Assembly (NCBI RefSeq): GCF_001544555.2
Contig: NZ_FCOK02000050.1
Coordinates: 1 to 64,000, forward strand
DNA from: Caballeronia udeis
Lineage (GTDB): Bacteria; Pseudomonadota; Gammaproteobacteria; Burkholderiales; Burkholderiaceae
Direction of reading: 5' to 3'
DNA: 64,000 nt
Shown: positions 44,788 through 62,902 of the stretch, piece by piece
Numbering within the stretch: position 1 is the stretch's first letter
How the letters are laid out: each line of letters opens with the position of its first letter
Made by a program: the position numbers and the translations under genes
Notes under the pieces: model-generated
Database searches by the model: none
What the model saw: the letters and a program-made list of their open reading frames with translations, nothing else
Told to the model about the DNA's origin: nothing

Positions 44788-44798
44788 TCATCAAGAAC
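44788..44798 (+). repeat. Candidate attL core (TCATCAAGAAC)
   Basis: TCATCAAGAAC recurs at 62892-62902 in the same orientation. The preceding bases are GGTTC here and GGTT there, so similarity extends a little outside the core. It lies 9 bp upstream of the 40-residue membrane protein start on the host side. Confidence 0.6.
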
Positions 44799-44866
44799 TA
44801 TCATAACAGGCTTGAAATCCTTATGTAGTAAGGCTTTGTGGCTTATCTGAATTGGGCTTTTACCTC

Positions 44867-44878
44867 AATTTTACCCCA
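44867..44878 (+). repeat. Left copy of AATTTTACCCCA terminal repeat
   Basis: The 12-mer AATTTTACCCCA occurs here and at 62772-62783, both on the plus strand and both inside the element ends. At the right end it sits among related GGGGTGAAAC and GGGGTAAAAC motifs. Probably integrase arm sites rather than the crossover core. Confidence 0.5.
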
Positions 44879-44907
44879 AAAAGCGGGGTCAGATAGGCCG
44901 TAATCCC

Positions 44908-44925
44908 TGCGCAATCAGTTGCGCG
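44908..44925. repeat. 18-bp palindrome copy 1 (imperfect)
   Basis: TGCGCAATCAGTTGCGCG, two mismatches to the consensus TGCGCAATYRATTGCGCA. It lies 2 bp beyond the stop codon of the minus-strand gene at 44927. Confidence 0.65.
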
Positions 44926-44926
44926 C

Positions 44927-45745
44927 TCATGCCGCAGGCTGTTCCGGCTTTGCCTTGACCGTTTTCTTACCGGGCTTGACCGTAACCTTGGCTTCCGAGC
45001 TAAGCAGCGTATCCACCGCCCCGAAAAACTCTTTCGGGAACAGCTTGTGCACCAACGCCACCGCCGCGCCAGCCCCCAGCCCTTTGAGATAGGCCACCGC
45101 TGCCCCTTCGCCATCCACCGGGTTCGTGGCGGGCGCGGCCTTGTTCGGTATATCTTTGGCATCCACGTCTTGTACGTCATCAACAGGCGCGGGGTCTTTC
45201 GGTACGTAGCCGTGATCTACAGTAGTACCAGCGGCCTTTTCCGCCTTGTTCGCCCGCCTGACCGCTGCCGACCTTCTGGCCGCTTCTACCTTGGCCGCGT
45301 CTTTCGGCACTAGCCCCGCGACGAGACTTTTAACCTCCAGCACCGACTTCCCGGAAAGCTGTTGCACGAGTTCCGGCGCGTTGTCGTGCGTAAGCATTTT
45401 GGCGACATGCTGAAGAACGGAGAACGGCAAAGTCTCGACCACGCTGTATTCAATTTTCTCATTTTCCAGCCGTTCAAAGACCCGAATGAACCCGTTAGCC
45501 TGTGCAACGTCTACCCTCAGTTCTTTCTTCACGTAGTCGGTGAACGAGTCATACCAGAATGCCTTGTCATGCTCGACGTTGATCTTGTGCTTGACGCGCG
45601 ACAGCAGCGCACCAAGTTCGTAACTCGACCGACTGACGTTTTCTGCCGCCTTTTGGGTTTCGCGCATCAGTACACGCGCACTCATGCTGCCGACTTTCAC
45701 AACGAAACTGGAAGGGTTTGCTTCTACTACACTGGTTTGTGCCAT
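44927..45745 (-). CDS. Hypothetical protein, possible DNA-binding/partition-like (272 aa)
   Basis: An N-terminal helical region (about 20-120) with LSRVKHKINVEHDKAFWYDSFTDYVKKELRVDVAQANGFIRVFERL, reminiscent of DUF3102-type phage/plasmid proteins, then a Lys/Ala-rich region (about 150-175), an acidic linker and a C-terminal helix VAYLKGLGAGAAVALVHKLFPKEFF. Start ATG 45745 has GGAG 6 bases ahead; ATG 45757 is 4 codons upstream. A palindrome 29-46 bp upstream suggests autoregulation. First gene at the left end, transcribed outward. Confidence 0.55.
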   Translation of the reverse strand: MAQTSVVEANPSSFVVKVGSMSARVLMRETQKAAENVSRSSYELGALLSRVKHKINVEHDKAFWYDSFTDYVKKELRVDVAQANGFIRVFERLENEKIEYSVVETLPFSVLQHVAKMLTHDNAPELVQQLSGKSVLEVKSLVAGLVPKDAAKVEAARRSAAVRRANKAEKAAGTTVDHGYVPKDPAPVDDVQDVDAKDIPNKAAPATNPVDGEGAAVAYLKGLGAGAAVALVHKLFPKEFFGAVDTLLSSEAKVTVKPGKKTVKAKPEQPAA

Positions 45746-45773
45746 GACTGACTCCATTCAGTTGGGGGTGATC

Positions 45774-45791
45774 CTGCTAAACGATTAGCAG
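45774..45791. promoter_or_regulatory. Palindromic operator candidate, family 2 copy 1
   Basis: CTGCTAAACGATTAGCAG has 7-bp arms. It lies 28 bp upstream of the 45745 start, where an operator for the outward-facing gene would be expected. Its reverse complement differs from the copy at 48415 by one inserted A. Confidence 0.6.
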
Positions 45792-45986
45792 CGACCGCAC
45801 CTCGATAGTAGGAGACAACATCGCGGTTTACAACCGATATGCGATTGTCAAACCAGATAGAAAAGTGGTTTACCACACGCAAAAGAACAAAAAAACGCAT
45901 AAGCTAGAGCGCGCGCTGGTTTGGCAACCGGTGTATCGACCCGCCAGCAGTCAATTGCACTGACACACATACTTTCGAGGGCAACA

Positions 45987-46487
45987 ATGAAAATCATTTG
46001 TGCGGTCTTGCTGGTGGCGCTTGCTGGTGTAGGCTGGTGGCTCAGGACCGAAGTTGACGCCACTCGACGGCAGGCCGCTGAGATTCAGCGTTTGACGGCC
46101 AAACTAGCGGACAAGAGCCGTGAAGAGGAGTTCAAGCTACAGCAGAAGTGCGCAACGGAAGCCCAACAGAAGTTTCACCGGCTGGGGTATTCGGAAACGG
46201 GCGTACAACCTCAAGATGTGCTTGGTGCTGATTACCAAAGTCATTACAACACAGCGCAAAACCGGTGCTTTATGACCCTAGAAGTAACGATGACCGGCGG
46301 ACTTCAGTCCATGGGGCTGTTCGACGCCCTTGAGAACCGTACCTACGCTCAATACGACTGGCTACCGGAAAAAGACGACGTTTCAAAGGGATTCCGCGAC
46401 TGTCATCTAACCCCAACATCGACTGATGACCGGAGGTGTATATCGGAGCAAGAGTATCGGGCATTCGTCGCTCACTACATGGAGTGA
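45987..46487 (+). CDS. Hypothetical exported or membrane-anchored protein (166 aa)
   Basis: An N-terminal transmembrane/signal helix (about 3-20, IICAVLLVALAGVGWWL) is followed by a short coiled coil (ATRRQAAEIQRLTAKLADKS) and a soluble domain with four Cys (QQKCATEAQ, NRCFMTL, FRDCHLT, RRCISEQ). ATG 45987 begins the hydrophobic segment. A short AAAAC-GGTC-GTTTT hairpin follows the stop. No homologue recognised; position at the left edge suggests an accessory moron-type gene. Confidence 0.6.
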   Translation: MKIICAVLLVALAGVGWWLRTEVDATRRQAAEIQRLTAKLADKSREEEFKLQQKCATEAQQKFHRLGYSETGVQPQDVLGADYQSHYNTAQNRCFMTLEVTMTGGLQSMGLFDALENRTYAQYDWLPEKDDVSKGFRDCHLTPTSTDDRRCISEQEYRAFVAHYME

Positions 46488-46538
46488 CGCACTTTGCACC
46501 GCTACACGTTTGACAAACAATTGCGCGCACTACGGGCG

Positions 46539-46553
46539 GTAACAAACTGTTAC
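46539..46553. promoter_or_regulatory. Palindrome GTAACA-AAC-TGTTAC (family 3 copy 1)
   Basis: Perfect 6-bp arms separated by 3 bases, downstream of the 45987 gene. A second copy with a 2-base spacer lies at 48532. Confidence 0.5.
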
Positions 46554-46576
46554 AAACTCGTATTCCTCAGAGCTTT

Positions 46577-46592
46577 TCGAAAACGGTCGTTT
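46577..46592 (+). terminator. Short terminator-like hairpin after the exported-protein gene
   Basis: AAAAC-GGTC-GTTTTTT: 5-bp stem, 4-base loop, T-run. Weak stem, so only moderate confidence. Confidence 0.45.
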
Positions 46593-46957
46593 TTTGCCCT
46601 TTTTTGTCCATCTGCGTTTTTCGCCGAAAACACGATTCTTAGAATGTCCTAGCATTGAATCACCCGATGGCACGGCAACCAGACGGAGCGGAAGATAACG
46701 GCATGTGGGTGGTATCGAACCTCAGTTAGAACGTTTTTGCAGGGTGTCAGTGGTGTTGTTCCGTCCCACATCCGGGACTTCACCATGGTCCGCCAGACCC
46801 TCCCTGACAAAAGCGTTTTATCTGGGGTTTTTTGCATTCTGGCGATGGCAGTTGCAGGACCGAGCCGCGAACGCGGACGGCATATACAGCAGTACACACA
46901 AGCACAGTAGGTAGTCTGTCGTTCATCTAGAGCACAGACACGGCAAAGCTGAAGCGG

Positions 46958-46996
46958 CAAAAAAAATCCCGGTTTCCTTCGCAGGAGCCGGGATTG
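46958..46996 (-). terminator. Minus-strand rho-independent terminator in the rep leader
   Basis: On the minus strand AATCCCGG...CCGGGATT with an inner CCT/AGG stem is followed by eight T. It would end a transcript made antisense to the replication-gene leader. No coding gene lies on that strand upstream, so the transcript would be a small RNA. Confidence 0.6.
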
Positions 46997-47054
46997 AATT
47001 GTCCTGTGTTAGCGCACAGGCCGAGAGATAAGCCTTAAGTTTACTCGCTCTCGG
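46965..47054. ncRNA. Three consecutive hairpins in the replication-gene leader (candidate antisense or attenuator control)
   Basis: Stem 1 ATCCCGG/CCGGGAT (46966-46994), stem 2 CCTGTG-TTAGCG-CACAGG (47003-47020), stem 3 CCGAGAG/CTCTCGG (47021-47027 with 47048-47054). They end 33 bp before the ATG at 47088. Plasmid replication genes are often controlled by an antisense RNA in such a leader; this is inference. Confidence 0.4.
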
Positions 47055-47087
47055 ACGCCCCCGCAAACCGTGTTCTGGGAGATAACC

Positions 47088-48338
47088 ATGAGCAACAACG
47101 CCCCCGCCGAAGTCGTGGCCGTCCACGATGCTGAGCAATTCAATTGCGCATTAGACAAACCGGATAGCTGTGCTATAGCGCCAGCCAAGCAGCACCGCAC
47201 CGCCGTAGGTCTTCCGTCCGATTCCGACCGTCATTACACCCTTGCCGAGCTAAAGGCGTGTGGGTTCGATGCGCTGGCCGCGACCATCGTTCATCACGTC
47301 GCGTACAACACAAAGCGTCACAAGTGCGCCAAGGCGTACACGTCATCGTACTGGATGGAGTTCTTTGGCGGGTGTTCAAAACAACAGGCGAGAACGGCAG
47401 TCAAGAATGCACTTGCCGCCAAAATCGACGGCGTACCGTTGCTGCAAATCAGTCATGGGTACTTCGCCAAGGTATGGAGTCCGCACTACCTTTACGTGGG
47501 TCCGGGTGTTGATTTCAACACCCCATGGCATGCCGATATCAACACCCCAAGTACAGAAGGTAACCAGCAGAAGGTAACCAAAGTCAAAAAAGACTTAGAA
47601 GATAGCACTGCCCAAAAAACAGGCAGTGCCGAACCCTCGAAGGTTCAACAGGCGGAGACAGGGAAAGGCAAGTCAAAGGCCAAACCAACCCCTGACGCCG
47701 TTGTGAAGCCCTTGAAATTTTCCCCTAAAGCGGGTGAATTCCTGCACATGGCATTCAGGACGCTGCAACAGCAGTACGACATGCCGTTCCCTGAGCTTGG
47801 TTCCCTGCTGCACGTGCGTGACTGCGCATCAGCCGAGGCCATAGGGTGGGCGCTGCAACAACTGGATTGGAATGAACAGCGGTTTGCCAAGTGGATCACC
47901 ACAGAGGGCAACTGGCATGAGTTTGATGCGCTTGTGCAACCCCTGTCTGAGCCTAATCCGGTCGTGCGGTATCTGAAAATCGGCTACCTGCGCGCGCATC
48001 TGGCCGAAGCGTTTGCGCTGTATCAGCAACACCTCGACGTTCAGAAAGCGAAGTACACCAGCAGCCAGCAGATCAAATTGAACGCCATAGCCCCACAGGC
48101 GATGAAACTGCCGATTCCGCTGTATGAGGAAAATCCCAGCTTGGTGGCCGCGATGTTCGGACATGCGGACTACTGGCACGAACAGCAGACAGACGGCCTA
48201 CTGGGTGGCAAGACGCTGGCGCAATACCTCGCTAGTTGGCAGTGGATCACGCCCGCCATGTTGGAGTGGCTCGACAACGAAGCGGTGAGAGAGCGTGTGG
48301 AGGAACTGCTGGCCGTCCACGATACCGCAGCGGCTTGA
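47088..48338 (+). CDS. Putative replication protein with winged-helix N-terminus
   Basis: A 416-residue protein. The N-terminal segment (about 45-145, HYTLAELKACGFDALAATIVHHV...SSYWMEFFGGCSKQQARTAVKNALAAK) has the layout of a winged helix seen in phage O-type and plasmid Rep proteins. A Lys/Ser/Thr linker (about 165-205) is followed by a helical C-terminal domain. ATG 47088 has GGGAGATAACC upstream; a GTG at 47070 is less likely. Its structured leader, and its position, suggest a replication initiator, but no catalytic motif confirms it. Confidence 0.45.
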   Translation: MSNNAPAEVVAVHDAEQFNCALDKPDSCAIAPAKQHRTAVGLPSDSDRHYTLAELKACGFDALAATIVHHVAYNTKRHKCAKAYTSSYWMEFFGGCSKQQARTAVKNALAAKIDGVPLLQISHGYFAKVWSPHYLYVGPGVDFNTPWHADINTPSTEGNQQKVTKVKKDLEDSTAQKTGSAEPSKVQQAETGKGKSKAKPTPDAVVKPLKFSPKAGEFLHMAFRTLQQQYDMPFPELGSLLHVRDCASAEAIGWALQQLDWNEQRFAKWITTEGNWHEFDALVQPLSEPNPVVRYLKIGYLRAHLAEAFALYQQHLDVQKAKYTSSQQIKLNAIAPQAMKLPIPLYEENPSLVAAMFGHADYWHEQQTDGLLGGKTLAQYLASWQWITPAMLEWLDNEAVRERVEELLAVHDTAAA

Positions 48339-48414
48339 ACCTGGCTTTTTGTCGGGCCTGTTGGGCGGTGGTTGGTCTTGGGATGAGGGTGGAGCGTGGC
48401 AGGCCGTCACAAGC

Positions 48415-48433
48415 CTGCTAAATCGTTTAGCAG
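48415..48433. promoter_or_regulatory. Palindromic operator candidate, family 2 copy 2
   Basis: CTGCTAAATCGTTTAGCAG has perfect 8-bp arms around TCG. It lies in the 227-bp gap between the replication-like gene and the HTH gene at 48566. Confidence 0.6.
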
Positions 48434-48531
48434 AATCCGCGCACTCAATTGCGTAGAACTAACGAATGTGGGCGACCACGCACTCAACGCGCATAAGGTG
48501 CCCACGCGATTTGTGGTCAATATACTTGGAA

Positions 48532-48545
48532 GTAACAGGTGTTAC
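48532..48545. promoter_or_regulatory. Palindrome GTAACA-GG-TGTTAC (family 3 copy 2)
   Basis: Perfect 6-bp arms with a 2-base spacer, 20 bp upstream of the ATG at 48566. A likely operator for that gene. Confidence 0.55.
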
Positions 48546-48565
48546 ATCACAAGGAACTGCCGGTC

Positions 48566-48784
48566 ATGAACGAGTCGCGCGCACCACACAGAGAAACGCC
48601 TGATTCAGTTCTCAAAGGGATTCTGGCAGCGGTGGCAAGTGGCTTGGCGCTGGATACCGCATGTACCAACGCCGGTATCAATCGCAAGACCTTTTACATG
48701 TACTTGCGTGACGACAGGCAGCTAGTGGCCGACTACGCCGAAGCCACAAAATTGCAGGTACACAGCAGATTTTCGAAGGAGTAA
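48566..48784 (+). CDS. Small HTH protein, terminase-small-subunit-like DNA binding
   Basis: 72 residues. VLKGILAAVASGLALDTACTNAGINRKTFYMYLRDDRQLVADYAEATKLQ has the helix-turn-helix and the G-x-S/A-L-x-x-A-C-x-x-A-G-I-x-x-x-T-F pattern of phage terminase small subunit/Sf6-type N-terminal domains, but no oligomerisation region follows. It may instead be a small regulator. An operator-like palindrome lies upstream; the next gene starts 5 bp later. Confidence 0.55.
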   Translation: MNESRAPHRETPDSVLKGILAAVASGLALDTACTNAGINRKTFYMYLRDDRQLVADYAEATKLQVHSRFSKE

Positions 48785-48788
48785 CGAA

Positions 48789-49292
48789 ATGGCAGTTCGT
48801 AAACGTCCCGCTTGGGATTTGAGCCTTAGTGAAATTGAGGCCCGCGCCAAAAGTGCGCGAGTGGATGCGCTTTTGCGACCGCAGCAAGCCCGCGCGGACG
48901 CCGTAAGTGCCGCCGACCGGGAAATACTTCGCGCCGTGGCTCAGAACCTGACTGCCGATCAAGTTATTGCGATCAGTGCGGCGATGCAGCGCGGCGAAGT
49001 CCCGGACCTTACGAGCTATCTCAGTAACGTACGCGCCGACAGCACGATAACGGGTGACGGTTTGAGAATGGTCGTTCATCACGACGACAGCGGGAGACCT
49101 GTTCGTGAGTTTGAGAACACCGGCAAGCGCAAGGTGTGGATGGACACGTTTCGTGATCCACCCACTTTGATGATTCGAATCAACAAAAAAGCAGGACAGC
49201 CGGACAGCGAAGACAACAATGCCTATCAAGTGCGATGGGAAGAAGACCAGCGAAAGCTGGCATCTGGTACGTACACTTTGCCGGAGCTTTGA
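48789..49292 (+). CDS. Hypothetical protein (167 aa)
   Basis: A mostly helical N-terminal half with WDLSLSEIEARAKSARVDALLRP and AADREILRAVAQNLTADQVIAIS, then a beta-rich segment with STITGDGLRMVVHHDD and KVWMDTFRDPPTLMIRIN. No family recognised. The C-terminal phrase FRDPPTLM resembles YSKPPQLM in the next gene's C-terminus, suggesting the two share an origin. Confidence 0.6.
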   Translation: MAVRKRPAWDLSLSEIEARAKSARVDALLRPQQARADAVSAADREILRAVAQNLTADQVIAISAAMQRGEVPDLTSYLSNVRADSTITGDGLRMVVHHDDSGRPVREFENTGKRKVWMDTFRDPPTLMIRINKKAGQPDSEDNNAYQVRWEEDQRKLASGTYTLPEL

Positions 49293-49295
49293 ACC

Positions 49296-49739
49296 ATGCG
49301 CCAAGACCTCGCCACTGTCGTTCAATACGATCAAATCGCCGCCGAATATGCGCCAGTGGTGCAAGTCGCTGGACTGCGAACCGCAATCATCGACATTTGC
49401 CGGAACGATGCCGCGACGCCCGATCAACTCCGTAAAATGTTGATCCATCAATTGCAAGCTACTTTGCCTAAGTCGGTTCCGGCCAGCATTCGGGGCAACC
49501 TGTCGCCACAGGCACCCGCCGATATGGTCGCCACGACTGAGGCAAAGGTACGTTCCGCTGTGTTCGAGACCGCGCATCAATCGCCGGAATTGCGGGCTGT
49601 TGTTTCGAAAGATCGGGTAGGCCGTGAGCAGACCGAATTTTTCGGGCAAAAACGGTCATGGATGACCGCATATTCCAAGCCGCCCCAGTTGATGAAATCA
49701 ATCAACGGCCAGCCCGTTCGCCTGCCGGTAATCGTGTAG
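49296..49739 (+). CDS. Hypothetical protein (147 aa)
   Basis: Unrecognised. Helical N-terminus (YDQIAAEYAPVVQVAGLRTAIIDICRND...LRKMLIHQLQ) and a C-terminal region ending KRSWMTAYSKPPQLMKSINGQPV, which parallels KVWMDTFRDPPTLMIRIN in the gene just upstream. It follows that gene by 3 bp; the pair may be diverged duplicates. Co-transcribed with flanking genes. Confidence 0.6.
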   Translation: MRQDLATVVQYDQIAAEYAPVVQVAGLRTAIIDICRNDAATPDQLRKMLIHQLQATLPKSVPASIRGNLSPQAPADMVATTEAKVRSAVFETAHQSPELRAVVSKDRVGREQTEFFGQKRSWMTAYSKPPQLMKSINGQPVRLPVIV

Positions 49740-49758
49740 TGAGTTGATGGTGACTGCC

Positions 49759-49968
49759 ATGATCAAGCCGCTTACCAAGAGATGCGCAACGTGCTTGCTG
49801 GACAAGCCGTTGATTGCATTTGGTCATTGTCGTGCCCGTGTTGATGGCTTTCAACCGCAGTGCCGAGCATGTCGGAAAGAACTAGCAGCGGATTACTACA
49901 GGCGGCACCGGGAACAAATTCTGGCTAAAGCCCGCGCACGTCAGAAGCAGCAAGGGAGCACGTCATGA
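49759..49968 (+). CDS. Small zinc-finger protein
   Basis: 69 residues. Two Cys pairs, CATC and CRAC, about 27 residues apart, with YYRRHREQILAKARARQKQQ, match the zinc-binding module seen in recombination endonuclease VII-type and HNH phage proteins. The nuclease catalytic residues are not present, so it is probably only the binding module. ATG 49759 has GGTGA upstream; overlaps the next gene (ATGA). Confidence 0.65.
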   Translation: MIKPLTKRCATCLLDKPLIAFGHCRARVDGFQPQCRACRKELAADYYRRHREQILAKARARQKQQGSTS

Positions 49969-50138
49969 CCGCACGTACCGCGCGCTGGCCGCAACCCATA
50001 CCGCGACGCCCGGTTAAGCAGCGCCGTTTTGAACCACCAGCGGGTGGGATCACCCTAGCGCAGATTGCCGCTCCCGGTCGCGCAGGCATGACGGTAGATC
50101 AGTACTGGAAAATGAAGGGCAAGCGAGGTGTGAAATGA
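49965..50138 (+). CDS. Hypothetical small basic protein (57 aa)
   Basis: A 57-residue, Arg/Pro-rich protein starting MTARTARWPQPIPRRPVKQ and ending in QYWKMKGKRGVK. It overlaps the zinc-finger gene upstream and the next gene downstream by 4 bp each (ATGA), so it is embedded in a coupled translation chain. Function unknown. Confidence 0.55.
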   Translation: MTARTARWPQPIPRRPVKQRRFEPPAGGITLAQIAAPGRAGMTVDQYWKMKGKRGVK

Positions 50139-50452
50139 TTGATATCCCAAAACTCGAAGCACTGCTGTCTTGCGCTACTGATATCTGGACCGTGCGAATT
50201 CCACAATTCCGCATGACCCACGGTGTGGGCGAGGAAGTTGAACGGAACGTGGCGAACATGTTGATGGTGGTAGCCAATTGTTTGGATCAATCTGTGCAGA
50301 TTCTTAAAGAAGGGCAGTACGAGGACTCGGTTGCACATATCAGTGGACTTGTCAGGCGCGCGCTGGCCCAAATTGAAGATTGCCACGAAGAAGCGGCGGG
50401 GTGGGCAGTAGCCAATGCCGTGGTGGAAGCCGCGAAATCGACCAAGCATTGA
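50135..50452 (+). CDS. Hypothetical helical protein (105 aa)
   Basis: An all-helical 105-residue protein (GEEVERNVANMLMVVANCLDQSVQILKEG, SGLVRRALAQIEDCHEEAAGW). No family recognised. It starts inside the stop of the preceding gene and is followed by the tape-measure gene after 72 bp that contain an 18-bp palindrome. Confidence 0.55.
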   Translation: MIDIPKLEALLSCATDIWTVRIPQFRMTHGVGEEVERNVANMLMVVANCLDQSVQILKEGQYEDSVAHISGLVRRALAQIEDCHEEAAGWAVANAVVEAAKSTKH

Positions 50453-50483
50453 TCTATAGCACCGACGTGCGGATTGTCAGTAG

Positions 50484-50501
50484 TCCGCAATTGATTGCGC
50501 A
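50484..50501. repeat. 18-bp palindrome copy 2
   Basis: TCCGCAATTGATTGCGCA, one mismatch to consensus, in the gap before the tape-measure start at 50525. Confidence 0.65.
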
Positions 50502-50524
50502 GCATCACACATGAGGGGCTGGCC

Positions 50525-52741
50525 GTGGCAGACAAAAAAATCCTTGAGATTCCTGTTGAAACTGAGCAATGGGATTCTTTTGTGGAATCTTTCCACAATT
50601 GGCAGTCCGAGCTAGAGAAGACTAACGGCGCGTGGGCTGGCACAAATCGCGGCGTGCGGGAATTGGGCACGGCTTTCGATCATGTGGAAACCACATTCAA
50701 TGATCTAGTTGAGAAGGCGACCGCCAGCAAGTTTTCTAGCCCCACGAATGGGGTGTTCACGCGCGTCGATAAGACCTCGAAGGAAACTGCAAAGTCATGG
50801 CAGAACATAGCCAAGGAAATCGAAAAAGCAGGGCGTGGCCTGACTGGTATCGCACGTAATGGCGGCATGGGGGTATTTGGGCTGTTCGGTGCTGCCGGTG
50901 TACTGGCTGGTGGACTCTACGGCGCGACGGCGGGCGCTGCCAACAGCGTGGCTGGTGACTTTAAAAGTGGTCGCCAACTCGGGCTTGAGCTTGGCAAGGA
51001 AAAGGAATTCGGCATTGCCGGTGAGCCTTATGGCCTTGGCCGTGACGCACTCGAAGAAGCCGCCAATGCAAAGGCAGACCCGACGAAACAACTGCCGTTC
51101 ATGAATGCCGGTGTTAGCGCTCAGGACTTTGCTACCAAAGATGCCGCAGAGCTTGCATGGCAGAAGGCCCGTGGTGAGGCCCAGTTATACAGCCAGTGGG
51201 AAAAGACCAGCCCCCAGTTCGCAGTAGCGCAGGCGCAATCATACTTTCCCGGAGAGAACCCGGACCAACTTCGCTTGCTGGCGGACGCACTGGATAAAGG
51301 AGACCTTGACAAGGCCCAGCAGCAGTACGAACAGAACTGGCAAAAAGTCGGTTACACCCAGCAGCAAGGTGAGGACGCCACGAAATTCAAGCAGGATCAG
51401 GCGCAAAAATGGGCTGATATCGAAACAGCATGGAATAAAGATATTTTGCTGCTGGCCCCGCACTTGGACAAGTGGAGTACCGCAGCCGAAAAGCTGGTGG
51501 TGGGCTTTCTCGACAACAGCGCGAAGACCGTCAACGACCTTGCAAACGCTGGTGACAACCCGACACCACCCGGTACTGAGCCGCCGCCAGCAGCATCAAA
51601 TGACATTCCGGCACGTATCACGCGCGGCACCGCCATGGTGGGCCAGTGGCTACAAGAGCATGGCCTGACCAACCCATTCGACGGTGCAGGCGCTGGCGCT
51701 GGCACCCCAGCAGGGCAACCGGGTTTCACCGCAGACCCTGACAAAGCCGCGCACATGGCAGCGCTCGAAAACATTTGGAGCATGCCCAAGGGACTTTTGC
51801 AGGCTGATGAAAATATCGAAAGCAGCGGTGGCACGAACAACATCAACCCGAATAACCCGAATGTGCTCGGTGCATTCCAGTTCGATCAACCGACCGCCGA
51901 TAAATACGGGGTAATTCGCACCGACGAGTATTCGAGCGAGGCAGGCGCGGCACGCTATCTGGCTGACCTGAAAAAGCGATATGGGTCATGGGATAAGGCC
52001 GTGGCAGCGTTTGACGGTTTTGCTGGCCTTGACCGCGACATTGCTAAATACGGCGATGCGTGGAAGGACCACATCAGCGAATTCCAGAAAAGTGGCGAGA
52101 CCTCGAAGTATCTGCGAAAACTAGCCGACCAAGGTATCGACCTTAGCGGGGGGAAAACGCCGTTCGATGACCCGAAGAACATCGCGCTTGCGAAGGCCAG
52201 CGACCCCAACAGTGGGAAGCACGACCGCAGCAGCCAGCAAAAGCCTTTCGATGACCCGCAGATCATCATGCCTTCGAAGACCGCCGACCCAAGCGGCGCG
52301 CCGACACCCTTCGAAGACAGTAAAGCCTTGAAGGCCGCGAAGGACGTGGAATTTAACAACGGGCAAAACGATCTTGGCGGCACGCGCAGCCCGTTCGATG
52401 ACCCGAAGAACATTGAGACCGCGAAGGCCATCGATCAGCTAAACGATCCACGAATCGTACCGATGGATGCTGTCGATCAACAGGCGCTGGATGCCCAGTC
52501 GAAAACGCAGGCACAGAGCGATCAGGAGTACGTATCAGAGACGTTGATCGACCGGTTAAAACGTGGATTCAGCACGATGGGTGACTATCTCAGTACGGGC
52601 GGTGGAGCGCAGTTCGCTACCCCCAGTGCGCCCGCACGCACCACAACTCAGACGACGCCGCAGCAGTTCAACATTCAAATGCAGGTTACAGCGCCAGCCG
52701 GTAGCGACGTGCAAGTAACGGGCGCGCAATTGGCGCAATGA
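50525..52741 (+). CDS. Tape-measure protein with embedded lytic transglycosylase domain
   Basis: A 738-residue phage tail protein. Helical N-terminal region with a Gly/Ala-rich hydrophobic stretch (about 113-140), an SLT transglycosylase domain (about 413-505; catalytic Glu 432 in IESSGG, then LGAFQFDQPTADKYG), and a low-complexity C-terminal part with four PF(D/E)D repeats at 546, 574, 595 and 623. GTG 50525 has GAGGGG upstream. In phages it sets tail length and cuts peptidoglycan. It is short for a tape measure; the stop overlaps the hub gene start. Confidence 0.75.
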   Translation: MADKKILEIPVETEQWDSFVESFHNWQSELEKTNGAWAGTNRGVRELGTAFDHVETTFNDLVEKATASKFSSPTNGVFTRVDKTSKETAKSWQNIAKEIEKAGRGLTGIARNGGMGVFGLFGAAGVLAGGLYGATAGAANSVAGDFKSGRQLGLELGKEKEFGIAGEPYGLGRDALEEAANAKADPTKQLPFMNAGVSAQDFATKDAAELAWQKARGEAQLYSQWEKTSPQFAVAQAQSYFPGENPDQLRLLADALDKGDLDKAQQQYEQNWQKVGYTQQQGEDATKFKQDQAQKWADIETAWNKDILLLAPHLDKWSTAAEKLVVGFLDNSAKTVNDLANAGDNPTPPGTEPPPAASNDIPARITRGTAMVGQWLQEHGLTNPFDGAGAGAGTPAGQPGFTADPDKAAHMAALENIWSMPKGLLQADENIESSGGTNNINPNNPNVLGAFQFDQPTADKYGVIRTDEYSSEAGAARYLADLKKRYGSWDKAVAAFDGFAGLDRDIAKYGDAWKDHISEFQKSGETSKYLRKLADQGIDLSGGKTPFDDPKNIALAKASDPNSGKHDRSSQQKPFDDPQIIMPSKTADPSGAPTPFEDSKALKAAKDVEFNNGQNDLGGTRSPFDDPKNIETAKAIDQLNDPRIVPMDAVDQQALDAQSKTQAQSDQEYVSETLIDRLKRGFSTMGDYLSTGGGAQFATPSAPARTTTQTTPQQFNIQMQVTAPAGSDVQVTGAQLAQ

Positions 52742-54725: not shown

Positions 54726-54767
54726 ATTTTCGTAATCGCAAGTTTTAGCATAACTAAGGGAGTCATC

Positions 54768-55022: not shown

Positions 55023-55032
55023 GGAGTAAGTC

Positions 55033-55221: not shown

Positions 55222-55231
55222 GGAGCGAATC

Positions 55232-55492: not shown

Positions 55493-55501
55493 GGAACAGC
55501 C

Positions 55502-55846: not shown

Positions 55847-55855
55847 GGAGCAGCC

Positions 55856-56110: not shown

Positions 56111-56111
56111 C

Positions 56112-56857: not shown

Positions 56858-57021
56858 GCACCAACAGCAATACCGCGCCAATGCCAACCGGAAATGGCCG
56901 CCCAGATGATTATCAAAAGGCAGACCGGACCAAGGCCGATGCCGCCAAGCCCGACCGCGATAGCCGTTCGTTGCTGAAAAACCTGCCGGTTGGTGCGTTA
57001 AAACCCGCCAACGCCAAGTAA
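56854..57021 (+). CDS. Hypothetical small protein (55 aa)
   Basis: 55 residues, Lys/Asp/Ala-rich and probably disordered (KADRTKADAAKPDRDSRSL). Overlaps the previous gene by 4 bp (ATGA). Ribosome site AAGGAACAGCC. Function unknown. Confidence 0.5.
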   Translation: MSTNSNTAPMPTGNGRPDDYQKADRTKADAAKPDRDSRSLLKNLPVGALKPANAK

Positions 57022-57032
57022 AGGGGCTGGCC

Positions 57033-57269
57033 GTGAAGACCGTACAGCAGTGGCTAACCGAGTTGGAGAACGGGGCACGCGAGCCAGCGCCAGCGCACGG
57101 CCATGAGCTACTGATAAGCGGGGCGACGACCGTGCAGTGCTCGCAGGATCGTGGAGTAGTCACGTGGACGGTGAATAACCGACAGGTAGACCGTGACACC
57201 GCTGGCCGAGCACTGGCGTTTGCACGAGCGCATCCGTCTGGACGTTTCACCGATTTTCATAAGGGGTGA
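57033..57269 (+). CDS. Hypothetical protein (78 aa)
   Basis: A 78-residue alpha-beta protein beginning with GTG: KTVQQWLTELENGAREPAPAHGHELLISGATTVQCSQDRGVVTWTVNN. AAAGGGGCTGGCC upstream supports the GTG start. Its stop overlaps the next gene. Unrecognised. Confidence 0.55.
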   Translation: MKTVQQWLTELENGAREPAPAHGHELLISGATTVQCSQDRGVVTWTVNNRQVDRDTAGRALAFARAHPSGRFTDFHKG

Positions 57270-58024
57270 CCGTGGACGAACCACGCTTGTACGTCGTGCA
57301 GTCAATGCAGCGGGCACGGCTTACGCCGTTTGAAGGACACCCAGTAGCGCCGTGGACGACAGGAAAGAGCCAGTCATTACCGCCACTGCCCGACAAGCCG
57401 CAGAAGCCGAAGAAAGCCAAGGCCGCTGCACCAGCGCCAGCACCCGTAAGTCCTTACCCACGCCTGCCGAGAGACGCGGCGATTAAGCGCATGCTGGAAG
57501 AAGGTAGAACTTCTGCGTACATAGCGAGCGCACTGGGGGTAGATGCAAATTACGTGTACGGCTTGAAATCCAAGCTTAAGCGCGCGGGGACATTGGTGGT
57601 GGCCGCAGTAACTGACGTTGATAGTGAGCAGGCAGAGGCAGTACCAGCAGCAGTAACACCGGATGCAAGCCCGGTACAGCCCGCGTGCCTACCGGCGTCA
57701 CCAGAGCGCGTACGCACGCATATTCTCGATTGGGGCGCACGCATGGGGAGTTATGAGTACAGCAGCCCACCTGCTGGGTGTGTGCCGAGGAAAGCCCGCA
57801 AGCGCGTCAACGGCATGACACGCGGGCAGATGCGGGATGAACTACGCGGGTACGCCCGTGCATGTCCGTGCGCAATCAATTGCGCAGCAGCAGAGCATGG
57901 CCCACGACCGCAGCAGCCAGAAAGCATCAAAAAACCCTTCGAAACAGGCCAAAAGGGGAAATTTTTTGCGGGCGGCGTAAGCCGGGATTTAGATGTTGCC
58001 TGGAGAACAGTATGCATAGCGTAG
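57266..58024 (+). CDS. Hypothetical HTH protein (252 aa)
   Basis: 252 residues with a Pro/Lys-rich N-terminal linker and a central helix-turn-helix, DAAIKRMLEEGRTSAYIASALGVDANYVYGLKSKLKRAG (about 72-110), of homeodomain-like type, then an Ala/Val/Pro linker and a basic Cys-containing C-terminal region (ARACPCAINCAAAEHG). Likely DNA binding, perhaps the ligand of one of the palindrome families. The last of the plus-strand genes; palindrome copy 4 falls within it. Confidence 0.55.
   Translation: MTVDEPRLYVVQSMQRARLTPFEGHPVAPWTTGKSQSLPPLPDKPQKPKKAKAAAPAPAPVSPYPRLPRDAAIKRMLEEGRTSAYIASALGVDANYVYGLKSKLKRAGTLVVAAVTDVDSEQAEAVPAAVTPDASPVQPACLPASPERVRTHILDWGARMGSYEYSSPPAGCVPRKARKRVNGMTRGQMRDELRGYARACPCAINCAAAEHGPRPQQPESIKKPFETGQKGKFFAGGVSRDLDVAWRTVCIA
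57869..57886. repeat. 18-bp palindrome copy 4 (perfect consensus)
   Basis: TGCGCAATCAATTGCGCA, an exact match to the consensus, inside the HTH gene. Confidence 0.7.
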
Positions 58025-58687
58025 GAAGATCAGGCAGGCGGCATGCAGATGGAACCGGGCGAAGTTAGCGCGCGAGCGACAAGGCCAGTAGTAGACCGCA
58101 GAAGTGCATCACGGTGACCACGGGCGCGCGAACGCGCCAGCCTTGTACCACTTGTACGGTTGTGCCACCTGTACCCCACGCGCAGACCGTTGAACGTTGA
58201 ACCGGCAATCCCTCCCTCGCACGACCGACAGATTTTCTGTACGCCAGCACGACCCACGGCATACGCACGTGCGGGTCTTGAAATCACCGGTCAACAGCAT
58301 GTCAGACCTACGGGCCGAGCCAGTACGCTGTTAGTCGTTTAGCGCCAACGAGACAGGTTACCGGTCAACCCGCTCGTGGTTGTAAATTTGGGGTATTCTG
58401 CTATGAGTGACCCACGACGCACAGCAGCAAAAGTGGGGTAAAAATTGATAACGCTTATTATGTCAATATTTCGTGCAGCGCAATAACTGTTATAAATCAA
58501 ATACTTGCGCTGCTTCGTACGATTATCGTAAGTTATCGACAAATGCTGCATCGCACTAGCTTACGAGTTGAGGCGAAATGTGGCAAAAGCCGTAAGCCGG
58601 TGGTCATACGAAAGGCAGTAGGGCGTTGTAGTCCTTACCTGCCTGCACGGTAGTTCGCGCAATTGATTGCGCAGAAGCGCGGCGCAG
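58025..58687. other. 663-bp noncoding region between convergent genes; possible origin or packaging region
   Basis: No supportable ORF. It carries a degenerate family 2 palindrome (58328-58344), an AT-rich core (about 58440-58560) with a 9-bp inverted repeat GCAGCGCAA/TTGCGCTGC (58475-58483 and 58505-58513) around a 21-base AT-rich loop, GTTATC/GATAAC repeats at 58446, 58522 and 58532, and palindrome copy 5 near the fibre stop. A long gene-free AT-rich stretch between two 3' ends is unusual. Confidence 0.4.
58656..58673. repeat. 18-bp palindrome copy 5
   Basis: CGCGCAATTGATTGCGCA, one mismatch, 15 bp beyond the fibre-gene stop. Confidence 0.7.
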
Positions 58688-60892
58688 CTACAGCCCCAGC
58701 AGCGACACCGGCACGACTCTAGGCCGCTCCTGCACTGGCAGCGATGCTGGTTGTTGTTGATCGGCGTACACCGGGAAAACCTCAAAAGGCATCACTGCCT
58801 GCCCGCACGTGGCACGAACCGCACTACCGACATTGCCGTGCGCGTACATCGCACCGGGGTTATCTGCCCACGTGCTGGCACGCGCGGTACTGCCTGAGCC
58901 TGCACGTGCTGCCATCGTTATTGACAGCCGTAGATCAGCCTGCGCGGTACTGCCTGCACTGCCAGCACCGTCAAATAGCTGCCTGCCCACCAGATTGGCC
59001 GCACCTGTACTGCCCACGGCGCTGCTGGCCTGCACGGTAATGCCCGTACTAGCACTGGCGCTGGCGCTGCTGCCCGTACCCGCACTGGCCTTGACCGTGA
59101 CCGCCGTATGCAACTGCGCGTGTCCGCTGCTGGCCTGCGTAGCGCCTGCCTGCACGGGTATGGCCGTGCCCAGCGCCGCGCTGGCCGTGCTGACCGCCTG
59201 TGCGCGCGCGCTCACAGCAATATCAGTAACCAGCCCCGCAGACGCCTGTGTATCCCCAGCGCCTTGCGCTTGCGCTTGTGCAGATGTACTGAGCGCCGCG
59301 CTGGCTGTGCTACCCGCAGTAGCGGAGACGTTGAAGCGCTGTTGACCCACCAGATTAGCGCCAGCGGTACTGCCTGCACCAGCGGCCCCCTGTAGGTCTT
59401 GATTGGGCGTATTCAGCGAGGCGCTGGCACTGCTGGCCTGCACAGCCTGCGCACCGGCATTGACCGCCGTGCTGAGAGCAGCACCAGCAACAGCCTGCGC
59501 GCCAGCAGCGCCGCTTAGCACCTGATTGGGGGTATTCAGTGCCGCACTTGCACTGCTGCTGCCCGTGCCGGTGGCCTGCGCGCTAATGGCCGTGGTGAGC
59601 GCCACGCTGGCTGTACCTGCTGTTACACCCGCTGCACGCGCCCGCACTGACGTACTCAACGCCACACGCGCCGTGCTTTGGTCCGTGGTCGCGCTGGCAA
59701 CGGCAATCGACGTACCTAACGATGCGCTGGCGCTACTACCTGCACTGGCCGTGCTACCCGAAAGCGGGTTAGGCATATACGCGCTGGCGCTGCTGGCCTG
59801 CCCGTTGCTCGCTTGCAGGTTGATGGACGTACTGAGAGCCGTGCTGGCCGTGCTGGCCGTCGCTGCATGCGCGTGCATGTCATTGGCGAGTGCAGCAACA
59901 GCGGCACTGCCCACGCTGGCCGGACTAACAGACAGCGGGTTGAACAGGCTGGCTTTGGCAGTGCCCGTTACTGCCGTGCTGGCGGATAACAGAATCGAAG
60001 TTGAGAGCGAAGCACTCGCGCTGCTGCCACTTCCGGTTGATGCACGAACAGCAATCGACGTGCTAAGCGCTGTACTGGCCGTGCTGGAATCGCTGGCGCT
60101 GGCGAATATTATGCCGGGGGTGTACGCGATAAGAATTACGCCTTGCGTGCCTGTACCTCCACCACCGCCCCCGCCAGCACCGTAGTTACCGGCGACACCA
60201 CCAGCGCCATAGCCAGCACCGCCACCACTGCCGGTTACGCCGTCTGCGAAGTCGTTGCCAGCACTACCAGCACCGCCGCCACCACCGCCCGAACCTCCAC
60301 CACCGCCCCCGCCACCACTTGCACCACCACCGCCCCCGCCACCGGGAAGGCCACCAGCACCGTCACCCGAACCGCTAAAGTTGTTTCCGCCGTTACCGCC
60401 GTTGCTAGTGCCACCAGCAGACCCAGCGGAGCCGCCGCCATTACCCCCGCCACCTCCACCACCACCCGCGCCGGTTCCACCAGCACCGCCAGCACCATGA
60501 GGACCGCCAGCACCACCACCGCCGCCTAAAGTAGTACCGCCCGCACCGCCGTTGAAATGAACGCTGCCACCTGTACCGCCCGTGCCGCCAGCACCGCCCG
60601 TGCTGCCTGAATTCTTGCTGCCACCGTTGGCGACAATCAACCCTGAATTGAACGAGGTGTTACCGCCGTTGGCGTTCGTACCACCAGCACCGATGACAAT
60701 CGGGATAGACGCGCCGGGTGTATAGCCAGTAAGGGCTAGGGCTTTGCGATACTCACCACCGCCATTACCGCCGCTGCCGGAAGTCGCGCCAGCGCCACCA
60801 CCTAATACCTCGACCGAATCGAGTATGCCGCTGCAATCAGCGGGAACCACCCAGCTAGTACCGCTGGTGAGAACCACGAATTTTTGGGCCAT
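58688..60892 (-). CDS. Gly-rich, Ala/Ser-repeat tail-fibre-like protein (734 aa)
   Basis: A 734-residue fibre-like protein. N-terminal ~35 residues (FVVLTSGTSWVVPADCSGILDSVEVLGGG) match the Gly-rich tail-fibre start; residues about 35-260 are extremely glycine-rich; residues about 265-700 are about 20 degenerate repeats near 21 residues long of the form GS(S/T)A(S/T)A(A/S)LST(S/A)I. A short unique C-terminal tail ends in RPRVVPVSLLGL. It is likely an extended adhesin, on the opposite strand from the spike, the first gene of the int/alpA run's tail. Confidence 0.7.
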   Translation of the reverse strand: MAQKFVVLTSGTSWVVPADCSGILDSVEVLGGGAGATSGSGGNGGGEYRKALALTGYTPGASIPIVIGAGGTNANGGNTSFNSGLIVANGGSKNSGSTGGAGGTGGTGGSVHFNGGAGGTTLGGGGGAGGPHGAGGAGGTGAGGGGGGGGNGGGSAGSAGGTSNGGNGGNNFSGSGDGAGGLPGGGGGGGASGGGGGGGGSGGGGGGAGSAGNDFADGVTGSGGGAGYGAGGVAGNYGAGGGGGGGTGTQGVILIAYTPGIIFASASDSSTASTALSTSIAVRASTGSGSSASASLSTSILLSASTAVTGTAKASLFNPLSVSPASVGSAAVAALANDMHAHAATASTASTALSTSINLQASNGQASSASAYMPNPLSGSTASAGSSASASLGTSIAVASATTDQSTARVALSTSVRARAAGVTAGTASVALTTAISAQATGTGSSSASAALNTPNQVLSGAAGAQAVAGAALSTAVNAGAQAVQASSASASLNTPNQDLQGAAGAGSTAGANLVGQQRFNVSATAGSTASAALSTSAQAQAQGAGDTQASAGLVTDIAVSARAQAVSTASAALGTAIPVQAGATQASSGHAQLHTAVTVKASAGTGSSASASASTGITVQASSAVGSTGAANLVGRQLFDGAGSAGSTAQADLRLSITMAARAGSGSTARASTWADNPGAMYAHGNVGSAVRATCGQAVMPFEVFPVYADQQQPASLPVQERPRVVPVSLLGL

Positions 60893-61008
60893 TATCTGCC
60901 CCGTGCACGATCACGCTTACCGGGCCGTGGTTCGAATATCACCCAGACCAGCGCGTATATGAGCGGGAACAGCAGAACATCTAGGCCGAGTAACTGTAGG
61001 ACGGTCAT
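60892..61008 (-). CDS. Small membrane protein (38 aa)
   Basis: 38 residues: MTVLQLLGLDVLLFPLIYALVW then a basic tail GKRDRARGR, a single-span membrane protein. Its stop overlaps the fibre start (TAATG) and its start overlaps the upstream AlpA-like gene (ATGA). This coupling links regulator, membrane peptide and fibre. Possible inhibitor or holin-like role is not supported by any further motif. Confidence 0.5.
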   Translation of the reverse strand: MTVLQLLGLDVLLFPLIYALVWVIFEPRPGKRDRARGR

Positions 61009-61271
61009 GATTGACCCCCCGACAGGTACGCGATGATCGTGCTGGCGTTCCAAAAGGGCCGTCCGTCATGACCATCAGCAGCGGGCAGCAACCCCGCCTT
61101 TTTACGGCTGTAAAACTCAGGTGAGGAAATGCCGAATACGGTCAACAGGTGACCGACGCGCAGCCGCCCGCACTGGTGTAGTTCGAACGGCAGGGGTAGC
61201 GGACGGGCGTTACCGTTACTTCTCTTCGATGCACTTGGTGCAACGGTCTTTGGCGCGAATGAAATGCCCAT
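61005..61271 (-). CDS. AlpA/excisionase-like HTH protein
   Basis: 88 residues. After a basic N-terminal tail, LRVGHLLTVFGISSPEFYSRKKAGLLPAADGHDGRPFWNASTIIAYLSGG has the winged-helix pattern of AlpA regulators and Xis proteins (I-S-x-x-x-F-Y-x-x-x-x-A-G-L-x-P and W-x-x-S-T-I-x-x-Y-L). In P4-like elements and Gram-negative PICIs AlpA controls integration and excision. AAAGGAGGGGGTC upstream gives a very strong ribosome site. Adjacent to int. Confidence 0.72.
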   Translation of the reverse strand: MGISFAPKTVAPSASKRSNGNARPLPLPFELHQCGRLRVGHLLTVFGISSPEFYSRKKAGLLPAADGHDGRPFWNASTIIAYLSGGQS

Positions 61272-61382
61272 GACCCCCTCCTTTTAGGGGTTGGACGGCA
61301 CTCCATTGCCTCATTGATTAACAGTGGTAGACGCGCCGCTGGTGGTGGACGCGTCCGATAACATGATGATTATGAACCCGCG

Positions 61383-61396
61383 TGCACAGGCGTGCA
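61383..61396 (+). repeat. 14-bp repeat TGCACAGGCGTGCA, copy flanking int downstream
   Basis: TGCACAGGCGTGCA occurs here and at 62795-62808, so the integrase gene lies between two identical copies. Confidence 0.7.
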
Positions 61397-61417
61397 ACGA
61401 CATTCACAGCCCTTGAA

Positions 61418-62713
61418 CTAGCTTCCGGGCGTGCCCTTCAGACCGTGCAGATACGCCCCCCACGCGTCCATGATCTGCACCCGCTCAGGCCAGAATTTCG
61501 CCTGCAAATACGCGCGCTTGGTGGCGTCTTTCTCTAGGTGGGCGAGTTGCTGTTCGATTGCCTCGCCACGGTAACCCGCACCGTACGCCCACGTGCTGAA
61601 CGATCCCCGGCAACCGTGCGCGCGGAACCAGTTTCCGGTATCACCACCGAAGCCCATGTACGACAGCGCGGCGTTAACAGTGGTGGACGCCATGTAGTCT
61701 GCTGGACGCCTGCTATTCGGGAACAACCAGCCTTTGCCACCGGTCAACACCTTCAGTTTTTCCAGCACCGCCAGTGCCTGAGCCGAAAGCGGAACAGCGT
61801 GTTCGATTCGCTTTTTCATACGCGAGGCCGGTACATTCCAGACCTTGTTCGTGAAGTCTATTTCCTGCCAATCGGCGGCGCGTACCTCGACCGTGCGCAA
61901 GGCCGTCAACATCAGTAGTTCAATCGCCAGCTTGGTCAACATCTGCCCGCCGTACGCACCAACCGCCGCGTGCAGCGCCACCAGACCCGCGCTATCGAGA
62001 GCCTTGTTACTTTTCGGGGCTGGCTTTTCTACCACGTCAGACGCCCGCAGATCGGCCACAGGATTGAACTTGATTAAGCCCTTCATTTTTGCCAGCCGGA
62101 ACACGCCATCCAACGCACGGCGCAGGATGATCGCGCTATGCGGAGCCACGGCCTTACGTTCTCCTGCATCCTTGTTAACGGACGAGCGGACGGCCACGCC
62201 CGTAACCAGCGCGTACAGATCACCGGTTTCAACCACGCCGATAGGCCGCGCACCTATCGGGTTGTCGCGAACGTATCTTTCCAACATCGCTCGCACCTTG
62301 GCCGCGTGGCCCGCGCCCCAGTTAGGTGTTTTCTTTGCCAACCATTCATCAGCCACCGCCCACAAGCTACCCGGCACTGGCGCATCTACTGGCGTGCTGG
62401 CGGGCGCACCGTTGTTCGTGGCTGGTGCGGGCTTGGCTTGCTTGACCTTGACAGGCGTAGGGGGCTTGCCTTGGTCTACTTCCTTGGCAGCAGCAGAGCG
62501 CAAATCGCGGGCGTGATCCAGACTCACTGCCGGGTACTCGCCAAGCGGGAACGTGCAATCCCGGTCACCGTTGCGATAAGCCCAGTACCAGCGTTTGCTA
62601 CCGGACGTGCCGACGAGCAAATACAATCGCTTCATATCGCTCAGTTTGTAGGGCTTGGCCTTGGGCTTGGCGTTCTTAACCTGTACGTCTGTGAGTACCT
62701 TGGTCTTTGGCAT
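61418..62713 (-). CDS. int: P4-type tyrosine integrase
   Basis: A 431-residue tyrosine recombinase. An N-terminal arm-binding domain (about 1-90, DUF4102-type, PLGEYPAVSLDHARD), a core-binding domain (about 120-215) and a catalytic domain. Catalytic residues visible: Arg in LTALRTVEVRAADW, His/Arg pair in HGCRGSF, His in QLAHLEKD, and Tyr in KRAYLQAKF. ATG 62713 has AAAGGAGTGGGTC upstream. It sits at the right end, transcribed inward from the mltA junction; it catalyses integration and excision. Confidence 0.92.
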   Translation of the reverse strand: MPKTKVLTDVQVKNAKPKAKPYKLSDMKRLYLLVGTSGSKRWYWAYRNGDRDCTFPLGEYPAVSLDHARDLRSAAAKEVDQGKPPTPVKVKQAKPAPATNNGAPASTPVDAPVPGSLWAVADEWLAKKTPNWGAGHAAKVRAMLERYVRDNPIGARPIGVVETGDLYALVTGVAVRSSVNKDAGERKAVAPHSAIILRRALDGVFRLAKMKGLIKFNPVADLRASDVVEKPAPKSNKALDSAGLVALHAAVGAYGGQMLTKLAIELLMLTALRTVEVRAADWQEIDFTNKVWNVPASRMKKRIEHAVPLSAQALAVLEKLKVLTGGKGWLFPNSRRPADYMASTTVNAALSYMGFGGDTGNWFRAHGCRGSFSTWAYGAGYRGEAIEQQLAHLEKDATKRAYLQAKFWPERVQIMDAWGAYLHGLKGTPGS

Positions 62714-62726
62714 GACCCACTCCTTT

Positions 62727-62881
62727 GGGGTGAAACGAACTACGGGGTAAAACCGGGACTTTTCACCCCCAAATTTTACCCCATAACCCGAAAATGCACA
62801 GGCGTGCATGAGCGTGCAATTTATGACAAAACCCAGTATTTATAAGGCTTTAACGATGAATGAGCGTGCAGGTGCGTGCAA
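62727..62881. repeat. Cluster of integrase arm-site candidates at the right end
   Basis: Motifs between int and attR: GGGGTGAAAC (62727), GGGGTAAAAC (62744), TTTCACCCCC (62761), AATTTTACCCCA (62772), TGCACAGGCGTGCA (62795), and further GCGTGCA copies at about 62812, 62863 and 62874. Two repeat types in an alternating pattern, inside the element and next to the core, fit integrase and Xis arm sites. Confidence 0.55.
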
Positions 62882-62891
62882 ATGCTAGGTT

Positions 62892-62902
62892 TCATCAAGA
62901 AC
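62892..62902 (+). repeat. Candidate attR core (TCATCAAGAAC)
   Basis: Direct repeat of the 44788-44798 sequence. It ends 9 bp before the mltA start codon. Confidence 0.6.

Follow-up and report, generated by a model that had tools for sequence, protein, structure and literature searches.

Can a phage satellite contribute its own tail core to particles that are otherwise assembled from the parts of another phage? This question is raised by a locus of Caballeronia udeis, which we analysed as a 64,000-nucleotide stretch of contig NZ_FCOK02000050.1 (positions 1 to 64,000; hereafter, the window). An island at 44788–62891 of the window encodes an integrase, a tape measure-like protein (TMP), a baseplate hub and a tail spike. 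A preliminary description, drawn from the sequence alone, had proposed a satellite that carries tail-tip parts and no capsid, and this is still the best reading, since nine elements of this type were found, the window's own included, without portal or capsid genes. Judged from its genes, the island is likely to be an intact, integrase-driven satellite that builds chimeric virions from its own tail core and helper parts, with the TMP and hub seeding the helper's tails, and we infer that a helper phage mobilises it. The description had also called this a distinct strategy. It is no longer unprecedented: according to the extracts of PMC12987554, PLEs of Vibrio cholerae form chimeric tails in which TMP and hub are the satellite's own.

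The island is a clean insertion

The island is an exact insertion of 18,104 bp, flanked by an 11-bp direct repeat, TCATCAAGAAC, with its left copy at 44788–44798 and its right copy at 62892–62902; the coordinates first proposed (44788..62902) span the two copies. In a genome of the same genus, G250, the empty site is intact, with the flanks joined at one copy of TCATCAAGAAC. Because the repeat flanks the island and the joined flanks hold a single copy, we regard the island as a clean insertion with TCATCAAGAAC as its attachment core. The site is the gap between two genes that, from reading the sequence and not from any tool, we take to be apaG and mltA; no tRNA was found within the 64-kb window. 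The G+C content is 53–60% across most of the island and 63–66% at 59–61 kb, and that of the flank at 36–44 kb is 59–62%.

The tyrosine integrase (61418–62809, minus strand) was correctly named at the outset, as it has three Pfam integrase domains (PF00589, PF13356, PF22022). A 12-bp direct repeat, AATTTTACCCCA, occurs at 44867–44878, 79 bp from the core, and at 62772–62783, 120 bp from the core, and the two copies are candidate integrase arm sites. The AlpA/Xis-like helix-turn-helix (HTH) protein (61005–61271, minus strand) is upheld by similarity within the satellite family described below; it had no Pfam or PHROG match.

The tail core is intact and conserved

The TMP gene (50525–52741, plus strand) encodes a protein with a transglycosylase-like stretch, and its own family match in the Pfam/PHROG scan is a weak transglycosylase alone (2.7e-4). 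It is probably a TMP by its position and its family: the gene lies upstream of the hub gene in related phages, where its annotation reads "tape measure protein" or "lytic transglycosylase". The hub (52738–54000, plus strand) matches the baseplate hub family phrog_196 (1.3e-16). Its AlphaFold model is modest (pLDDT 59.7, pTM 0.56), and Foldseek matched this model to solved hubs of the myophages phiTE, Bas63, E217 and Pa193 and to Mu gp44 (best E-value 4.5e-11). The spike (53997–54725, plus strand) carries the GpV apex motif PF18946 and matches TIGR01644, the P2 gpV model, below the cut-off (9.6e-7). The trio of tape measure, hub and spike that had been proposed is upheld, the TMP by position and family.

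All of the gene positions first given are open frames in the window, and the impression that the genes are intact was borne out when ten of them were compared codon by codon with those of L016, a metagenomic relative: no internal stop was found. The dN/dS values between the window and L016 (Nei-Gojobori) were 0.15 for TMP, 0.18 for the hub and 0.15 for the spike. The three genes are full-length and, by these values, kept under purifying selection. This bears on whether the TMP-hub set serves mainly to sabotage helper tail assembly as a defence, without being part of satellite virions. Tail assembly is a known target of defences borne by satellites or prophages (extracts of PMC11364771 and PMC10884400; Rta in those of PMC12987554), but full-length TMP, hub and spike under purifying selection argue against such a role, as does PLE11, whose TMP and hub are virion components by the account extracted from PMC12987554. 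We regard sabotage as unlikely.

Nine elements share the tail core and lack head genes

A hub search matched 6 of 299 genomes of the family, 5 of 58 genomes of the genus and 10 of 144 genomes of a second genus; among 399 genomes of the order, the one match was the window's own. A scan of genome contigs gave two loci, in Paraburkholderia gardini LMG 32171 and Paraburkholderia sp. BCC1884, on the same contigs as G136 and G295, and IMG/VR supplied L016, L017 and L018; pattern scans of viral contigs produced few loci. For each locus, 16–50 kb were examined (4 kb for G749), with profiles grown from the proteins of the window and of Pantoea phage PdC23 (Certevirus). The profiles split the loci into two sharp classes, satellites (n = 9) and references (n = 7). 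The satellites are the window element, G250, G136, G295, L016, G312, G731, G757 and G768; eight are integrated, in two Burkholderiaceae genera, and L016 is a metagenomic contig. The references are phages or prophages: L017, G236, G256, G304, G746 and two loci in G706 (G706a and G706b). G749, a 4-kb contig, was left out of both classes, G707 is another type of element, L079 and L080, two further phage stretches, stand outside the count of seven, and L018 and L077–L078 repeat the L016–L018 contigs and were not counted again.

All nine satellites have the TMP, the hub and the satellite integrase, eight have the AlpA-like protein, six have a terminase large subunit (TerL), and the spike and a fibre-like protein were found in three each. 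With profiles of the related phages, portal, head morphogenesis, major capsid protein (MCP), sheath, tube, baseplate J and tail I were found in 0/9 satellites. In the references, these seven head and tail genes were found in 7/7, as were TMP, hub and spike, and a TerL match was found in 6/7; the satellite integrase and the AlpA-like protein were found in 0/7, in the stretches examined. Among these labels, those of the large terminase, the portal, the MCP and baseplate J come from the PdC23 annotation. By gene position, we take four further genes to be those for head morphogenesis, sheath, tube and tail I. The "sheath" has a DUF3383 match and the L017 capsid protein a capsid match, both below the cut-off.

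When the 148 open reading frames (ORFs) of five phage stretches were compared with five satellites by tblastn, 18 matched, and all of these were TMP, hub, spike, TerL or the C-terminus of a head protein. For the window itself, capsid, portal, TerL, tube and sheath were found neither by Pfam/PHROG in the proteins scanned, nor by tblastn with the 148 phage ORFs, nor by the profiles, in agreement with the absences noted at first. A tailocin-like or domesticated injection device would also use a hub and a spike, and several such devices are among the Foldseek hub matches. However, the phage tube, sheath and baseplate J genes were unmatched in 9/9 satellites, the element is mobile, with attachment (att) repeats, and TerS or TerL (the small and large terminase subunits) would be useless to such a device; we give this explanation hardly any credence. 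Nor does the tail core look like host-range cargo, in which hub, spike and fibre would alter entry and have little role in assembly. The spike and the fibre-like protein do vary between elements (3/9 each), but the invariant pair is TMP and hub (9/9) and not the adhesive parts, so that cargo, too, is improbable.

The integrated satellites occupy several sites. Six integrated elements have good direct repeats, of 11 bp (window), 17 bp (G250), 17 bp (G136), 22 bp (G295), 15 bp (G731) and 46 bp (G312), and the corresponding spans are 18,104, 18,032, 16,896, 17,910, 18,102 and 18,403 bp. These six use five different core sequences, G295 and G731 having a common core; the core AATGAATTTCCATAC is common to L015 (2609 and 20519) and G731:C2 (2869355 and 2887457), in different genomes of the second genus. 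G757 and G768 have weak att repeat candidates only (14 and 13 bp), and their lengths are uncertain. Reading the sequence, we take the sites used to include the apaG-mltA gap, the 5' ends of trpG and of a thioesterase gene, and the 3' end of a protease-like gene. By eye, the 46-bp direct repeat of G312 (G312:C35, 39608 and 58011) looks like the end of a tRNA gene. The proposed search for the gene set, without capsid genes, at varied loci in Burkholderiaceae has thus yielded seven further integrated elements and one metagenomic contig.

Some reference genes are interrupted: the TMP of G706a and the hub of G706b are in pieces, and there is a stop in the hub match of G304. The two G706 loci (G706:C4, ~575000–606000 and ~638000–670000) are related prophages whose TerLs are identical; one tail gene is interrupted in each of them.

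Stand-alone domains of a head protein and terminase genes

A pair of genes whose likeness to a phage head protein was overlooked at first, at 48789–49292 and 49296–49739 (both plus strand), encodes products whose general family matches are at chance level. The pair resembles the C-terminus of a long phage protein that is sited between portal and MCP and has NUDIX and DUF2213 domains, followed by a charged stretch. A hidden Markov model (HMM) was made from the last ~130 residues of this protein from five phages and run on 933 six-frame ORFs of five satellites. Eight matches were obtained at ≤3.6e-5, including the two window copies (3.6e-7 for copy 1 and 2.6e-9 for copy 2), and no other fell below 0.1; in this run, the first paralogues of L014 (E-value 3.8) and L016 (E-value 0.45) were not significant. 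On 18 locus groups, the domain was found as a stand-alone protein in 9/9 satellites (15 copies, E-values 4e-24 to 3e-4) whereas in 7/7 reference phages or prophages it forms the C-terminal end of the long protein.

From its position and make-up, we take the long head protein to be a probable protease/scaffold. The stand-alone copies of its C-terminal domain suggest, by analogy with SaPI1 CpmB, a redirection of capsid assembly. CpmB is a small protein that has a capsid-binding motif at its C-terminus in common with the 80-alpha scaffold and competes with that scaffold (extracts of PMC5644958). The likeness lies in the kinship between a satellite protein and the C-terminal domain of a head protein of phages, here one with a putative scaffold role; SaPI1 differs in phage group and in motif, and the capsid effect in the present family is predicted. 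To our knowledge, SaPI1 has no tail genes, and we know of no case of capsid redirection in the related phage group. The stand-alone domains offer a concrete hypothesis of capsid redirection for that group. The satellite spans (16.9–18.4 kb) are near-uniform and would be compatible with a fixed smaller head.

Packaging genes are present as well. A short HTH protein (48539–48784, plus strand) resembles the Sf6 TerS (Sf6_terminase 1.3e-5, below the cut-off; phrog_1482, terminase small subunit, 5.7e-7), and in L007, L015 and L016 the Sf6-type TerS is above the Pfam cut-off. A second possible TerS (56112–56570, plus strand) was first noted for its DUF2280 domain, and this domain is matched at 1.3e-19 (PF10045); among the best 12 of 111 records of its phage relatives, 2 are annotated "terminase small subunit". 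The island had been described as lacking a packaging motor. This stands for the window, which has TerS-like proteins only, and does not hold for the satellite family, given its TerL in 6/9. The TerLs of L015 and L016 are 39–41% identical to that of PdC23, and the satellite TerL label follows from this kinship; the L016 TerL had no Pfam match.

A putative free form and a candidate helper

Where good repeats flank an integrated element (six cases), the integrase gene starts close to the core. Beyond this start, L016 instead continues into the replication end of the element, L016 3579–3712 matching window 46713–46844. The arm-like repeats of L016 are 197 or 208 bp apart, and the arm spacing predicted after excision, as the summed arm-core distances, is 199 bp for the window, 209 bp for G250 and 255 bp for G295 and G731. 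Because integrase, arm-like repeats and replication end are joined, L016 is read as a free form: it looks like an excised element that bears attP. The contig is linear, 16.2 kb long and without end repeats.

An alignment of the phage MCP found matches in none of the eight satellite-bearing genomes and in all six controls (one control, the L018 record, is almost identical to a row of the alignment). Since the satellite genomes lack this protein and the controls have it, the islands are not fragments of a prophage of the related type in the same genome. The phage whose hub is closest to those of the satellites is L017. Its hub is the best-scoring phage hub for 9/9 satellites (1.7–2.4 times the next), and its scaffold C-domain is the best for 9/15 copies, some margins being small. 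Adjacency of TMP and hub is common to L017 and the satellites, whereas two genes intervene in seven annotated phages (eight records, two of which are from close Yersinia phages). The hub tree places L017 and the satellites together in a single group (93/87), within which the position of L017 is not resolved, and in the TerL tree the satellite TerLs are not one group; the spike tree was set aside for its long branches that meet. The metagenome number of L016 is also that of L017, and the L016 TerL had no match in the L017 and L018 contigs. These two contigs yielded no tyrosine integrase either, so that a virulent helper is possible, although both may be fragments. We infer that the helper is an L017-like contractile phage, possibly a virulent one.

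These data also bear on how the island relates to complete prophages. A remnant, left after loss of the head and tail-body genes, would explain why the TMP, hub, spike and TerL families are common to phages, and why the satellite hubs are not strictly one clade, with L017 among them. However, the recurrence of one gene subset in nine elements, at near-uniform length and several sites, speaks against it, and the integrase family was not found in the stretches examined of the seven phages and prophages. The stand-alone scaffold domains, the purifying selection with no internal stops in ten genes, and the apparently excised L016 argue in the same direction. Homologues confined to complete prophages, or decay, were not seen among the nine elements and the ten compared genes. 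A remnant prophage is thus very unlikely, and an intact satellite is much the better account.

Several observations nevertheless weigh against a satellite that uses its own tail core. The satellite TMPs (610–738 residues) are not clearly shorter than the phage TMPs (530–659 residues), so that a change of tail length is no obvious purpose. The gene before TMP in related phages, a possible tail assembly chaperone such as PLEs carry, had no homologue in five satellites by tblastn, although a divergent one could escape. A scaffold role for the C-terminal domain in phages is proposed from position and make-up, and for 6/15 scaffold-domain copies another phage outscores L017. L016 may instead belong to a tandem array or differ in gene order. 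The host genomes yielded no helper, and the link to L017 comes from sequence and the shared metagenome number. Finally, since the L017 hub lies among the satellite hubs and the TerLs are not one group, parts have moved between phages and satellites.

A proposed mechanism and its relation to known satellites

We propose the following course for the satellite. Infection by an L017-type contractile phage would trigger excision and replication of the satellite. The scaffold-domain proteins would then compete with the helper scaffold on the helper capsid protein, giving smaller heads that fit an 18-kb genome. Packaging would be steered by terminase parts, namely the satellite's own TerS, together with its own TerL in 6/9 elements and presumably the helper TerL in the window element. 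TMP and hub, with the spike where present, would seed the tail, and helper tube, sheath and outer baseplate would assemble on this satellite core. The resulting chimeric particle would carry satellite DNA and divert helper parts.

A second type of element bears on how this tail module spreads. In L065 (G707:C1:1280000–1299999), at ~4776–17021, a TMP (phrog_9570, 2.1e-25, with a tail lysozyme domain) and a hub (phrog_196, 1.1e-26) occur in inverse order, and their neighbours are a PriCT-2/DUF927 primase, an AlpA match, an ORF6N protein and an SSB. The seven head and tail genes were not found by profiles in 32 kb of G707, where no integrase search was made. In the hub tree, the G707 hub groups with phage hubs, apart from the nine satellites, and the TMP-hub pair therefore seems to have been taken up twice. 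We put at somewhat less than an even chance the broader view that a separate satellite family remodels head size, packaging and tail of one contractile phage, possibly a virulent one, at once, and that TMP and hub are a minimal tail-hijack module taken up at least two times.

The closest likeness is to the V. cholerae PLEs, for which we draw on extracts of PMC12987554. PLE11, PLE1 and PLE4 have their own TMP, and PLE11 has a hub and chimeric contractile tails. In PLE11 virions, the PLE TMP and hub replace those of ICP1, and deletion of tmp lowers transduction by ~99.9%. The 2026 description presents PLEs as the first satellites for which chimeric tails are known and leaves open both their benefit and the mechanism of selection; tmp genes are noted in other putative satellites, cf-PICIs included. 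The chimeric tails proven in PLE11 are, in the present family, predicted from genes. By their description, PLEs have a tail assembly chaperone, and the hub is not in all of them, whereas here the hub is in 9/9 and no chaperone was recognised. Stand-alone scaffold-C proteins in every element and TerL in 6/9 are further features unlike the PLEs as described. The window hub matched 14 phage records, and ICP1 is none of them.

Other satellites are less similar. The cf-PICIs likewise use only some helper parts, and some have putative tmp genes (extracts of PMC12987554), but they have their own capsid, portal and connectors (extracts of PMC10690885), whereas portal and capsid of the related phages were found in 0/9 here. 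Pseudomonas AH14a/AH14b was considered as a precedent, and AH14b is reported without structural genes (extracts of PMC4936722). Psu, Delta and Sid had no match in the window proteins scanned by Pfam/PHROG, some short ORFs being outside the scan. We take the integrase with its arm-binding domain and the AlpA-like protein as the P4 likeness of the island; P4-like satellites differ in that tail-core and scaffold-domain genes are present here. The related phages PdC23, Rac-SA53 and L017 have homologous TMP, hub, spike and scaffold-like C-terminus, with TerL in PdC23, and differ from the island in their full set of head and tail genes.

In the open-licence PMC literature, no paper on such Burkholderiaceae elements was found among the matches listed. 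With a satellite-encoded tail core known from PLEs, the Burkholderiaceae family with its scaffold-C proteins is, by its gene content, a new variant. Having TMP and hub in 9/9 and a close phage relative, this separate family from relatives of Burkholderia opens the question of why a satellite would replace the tail core to comparative study.

Other genes of the island

Of ten island proteins searched with NCBIfam, only the spike and, weakly, the TMP were matched, and PADLOC gave nothing for ten. At the left end, a conserved phage-type protein (44927–45757, minus strand; phrog_17202, 4.7e-6; phrog_1733, 2e-5) had profile matches in 3/9 satellites (window, G295 and G731). A small Lar-like or endonuclease VII-like protein (49744–49968, plus strand) matches phrog_5558 (4e-9) and phrog_2340 (9.9e-9), and a conserved satellite protein (57266–58024, plus strand) had profile matches in 4/9 satellites. 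The glycine-rich protein of 734 amino acids at 58688–60892 (minus strand) has a putative fibre-like name and profile matches in two other satellites; it had no Pfam match and no match among 50,697 phage records, and the PHROGs scan did not include it. Similarly, the gene for the replication-like protein (47088–48338, plus strand) is present as first reported, its putative name having no PHROG match and a Pfam match only at chance level; residues 309–418 are 75% identical to L016. In the P. gardini satellite, a DUF3987 gene lies at L014 15000–16310 and is perhaps another replication option than that of the window.

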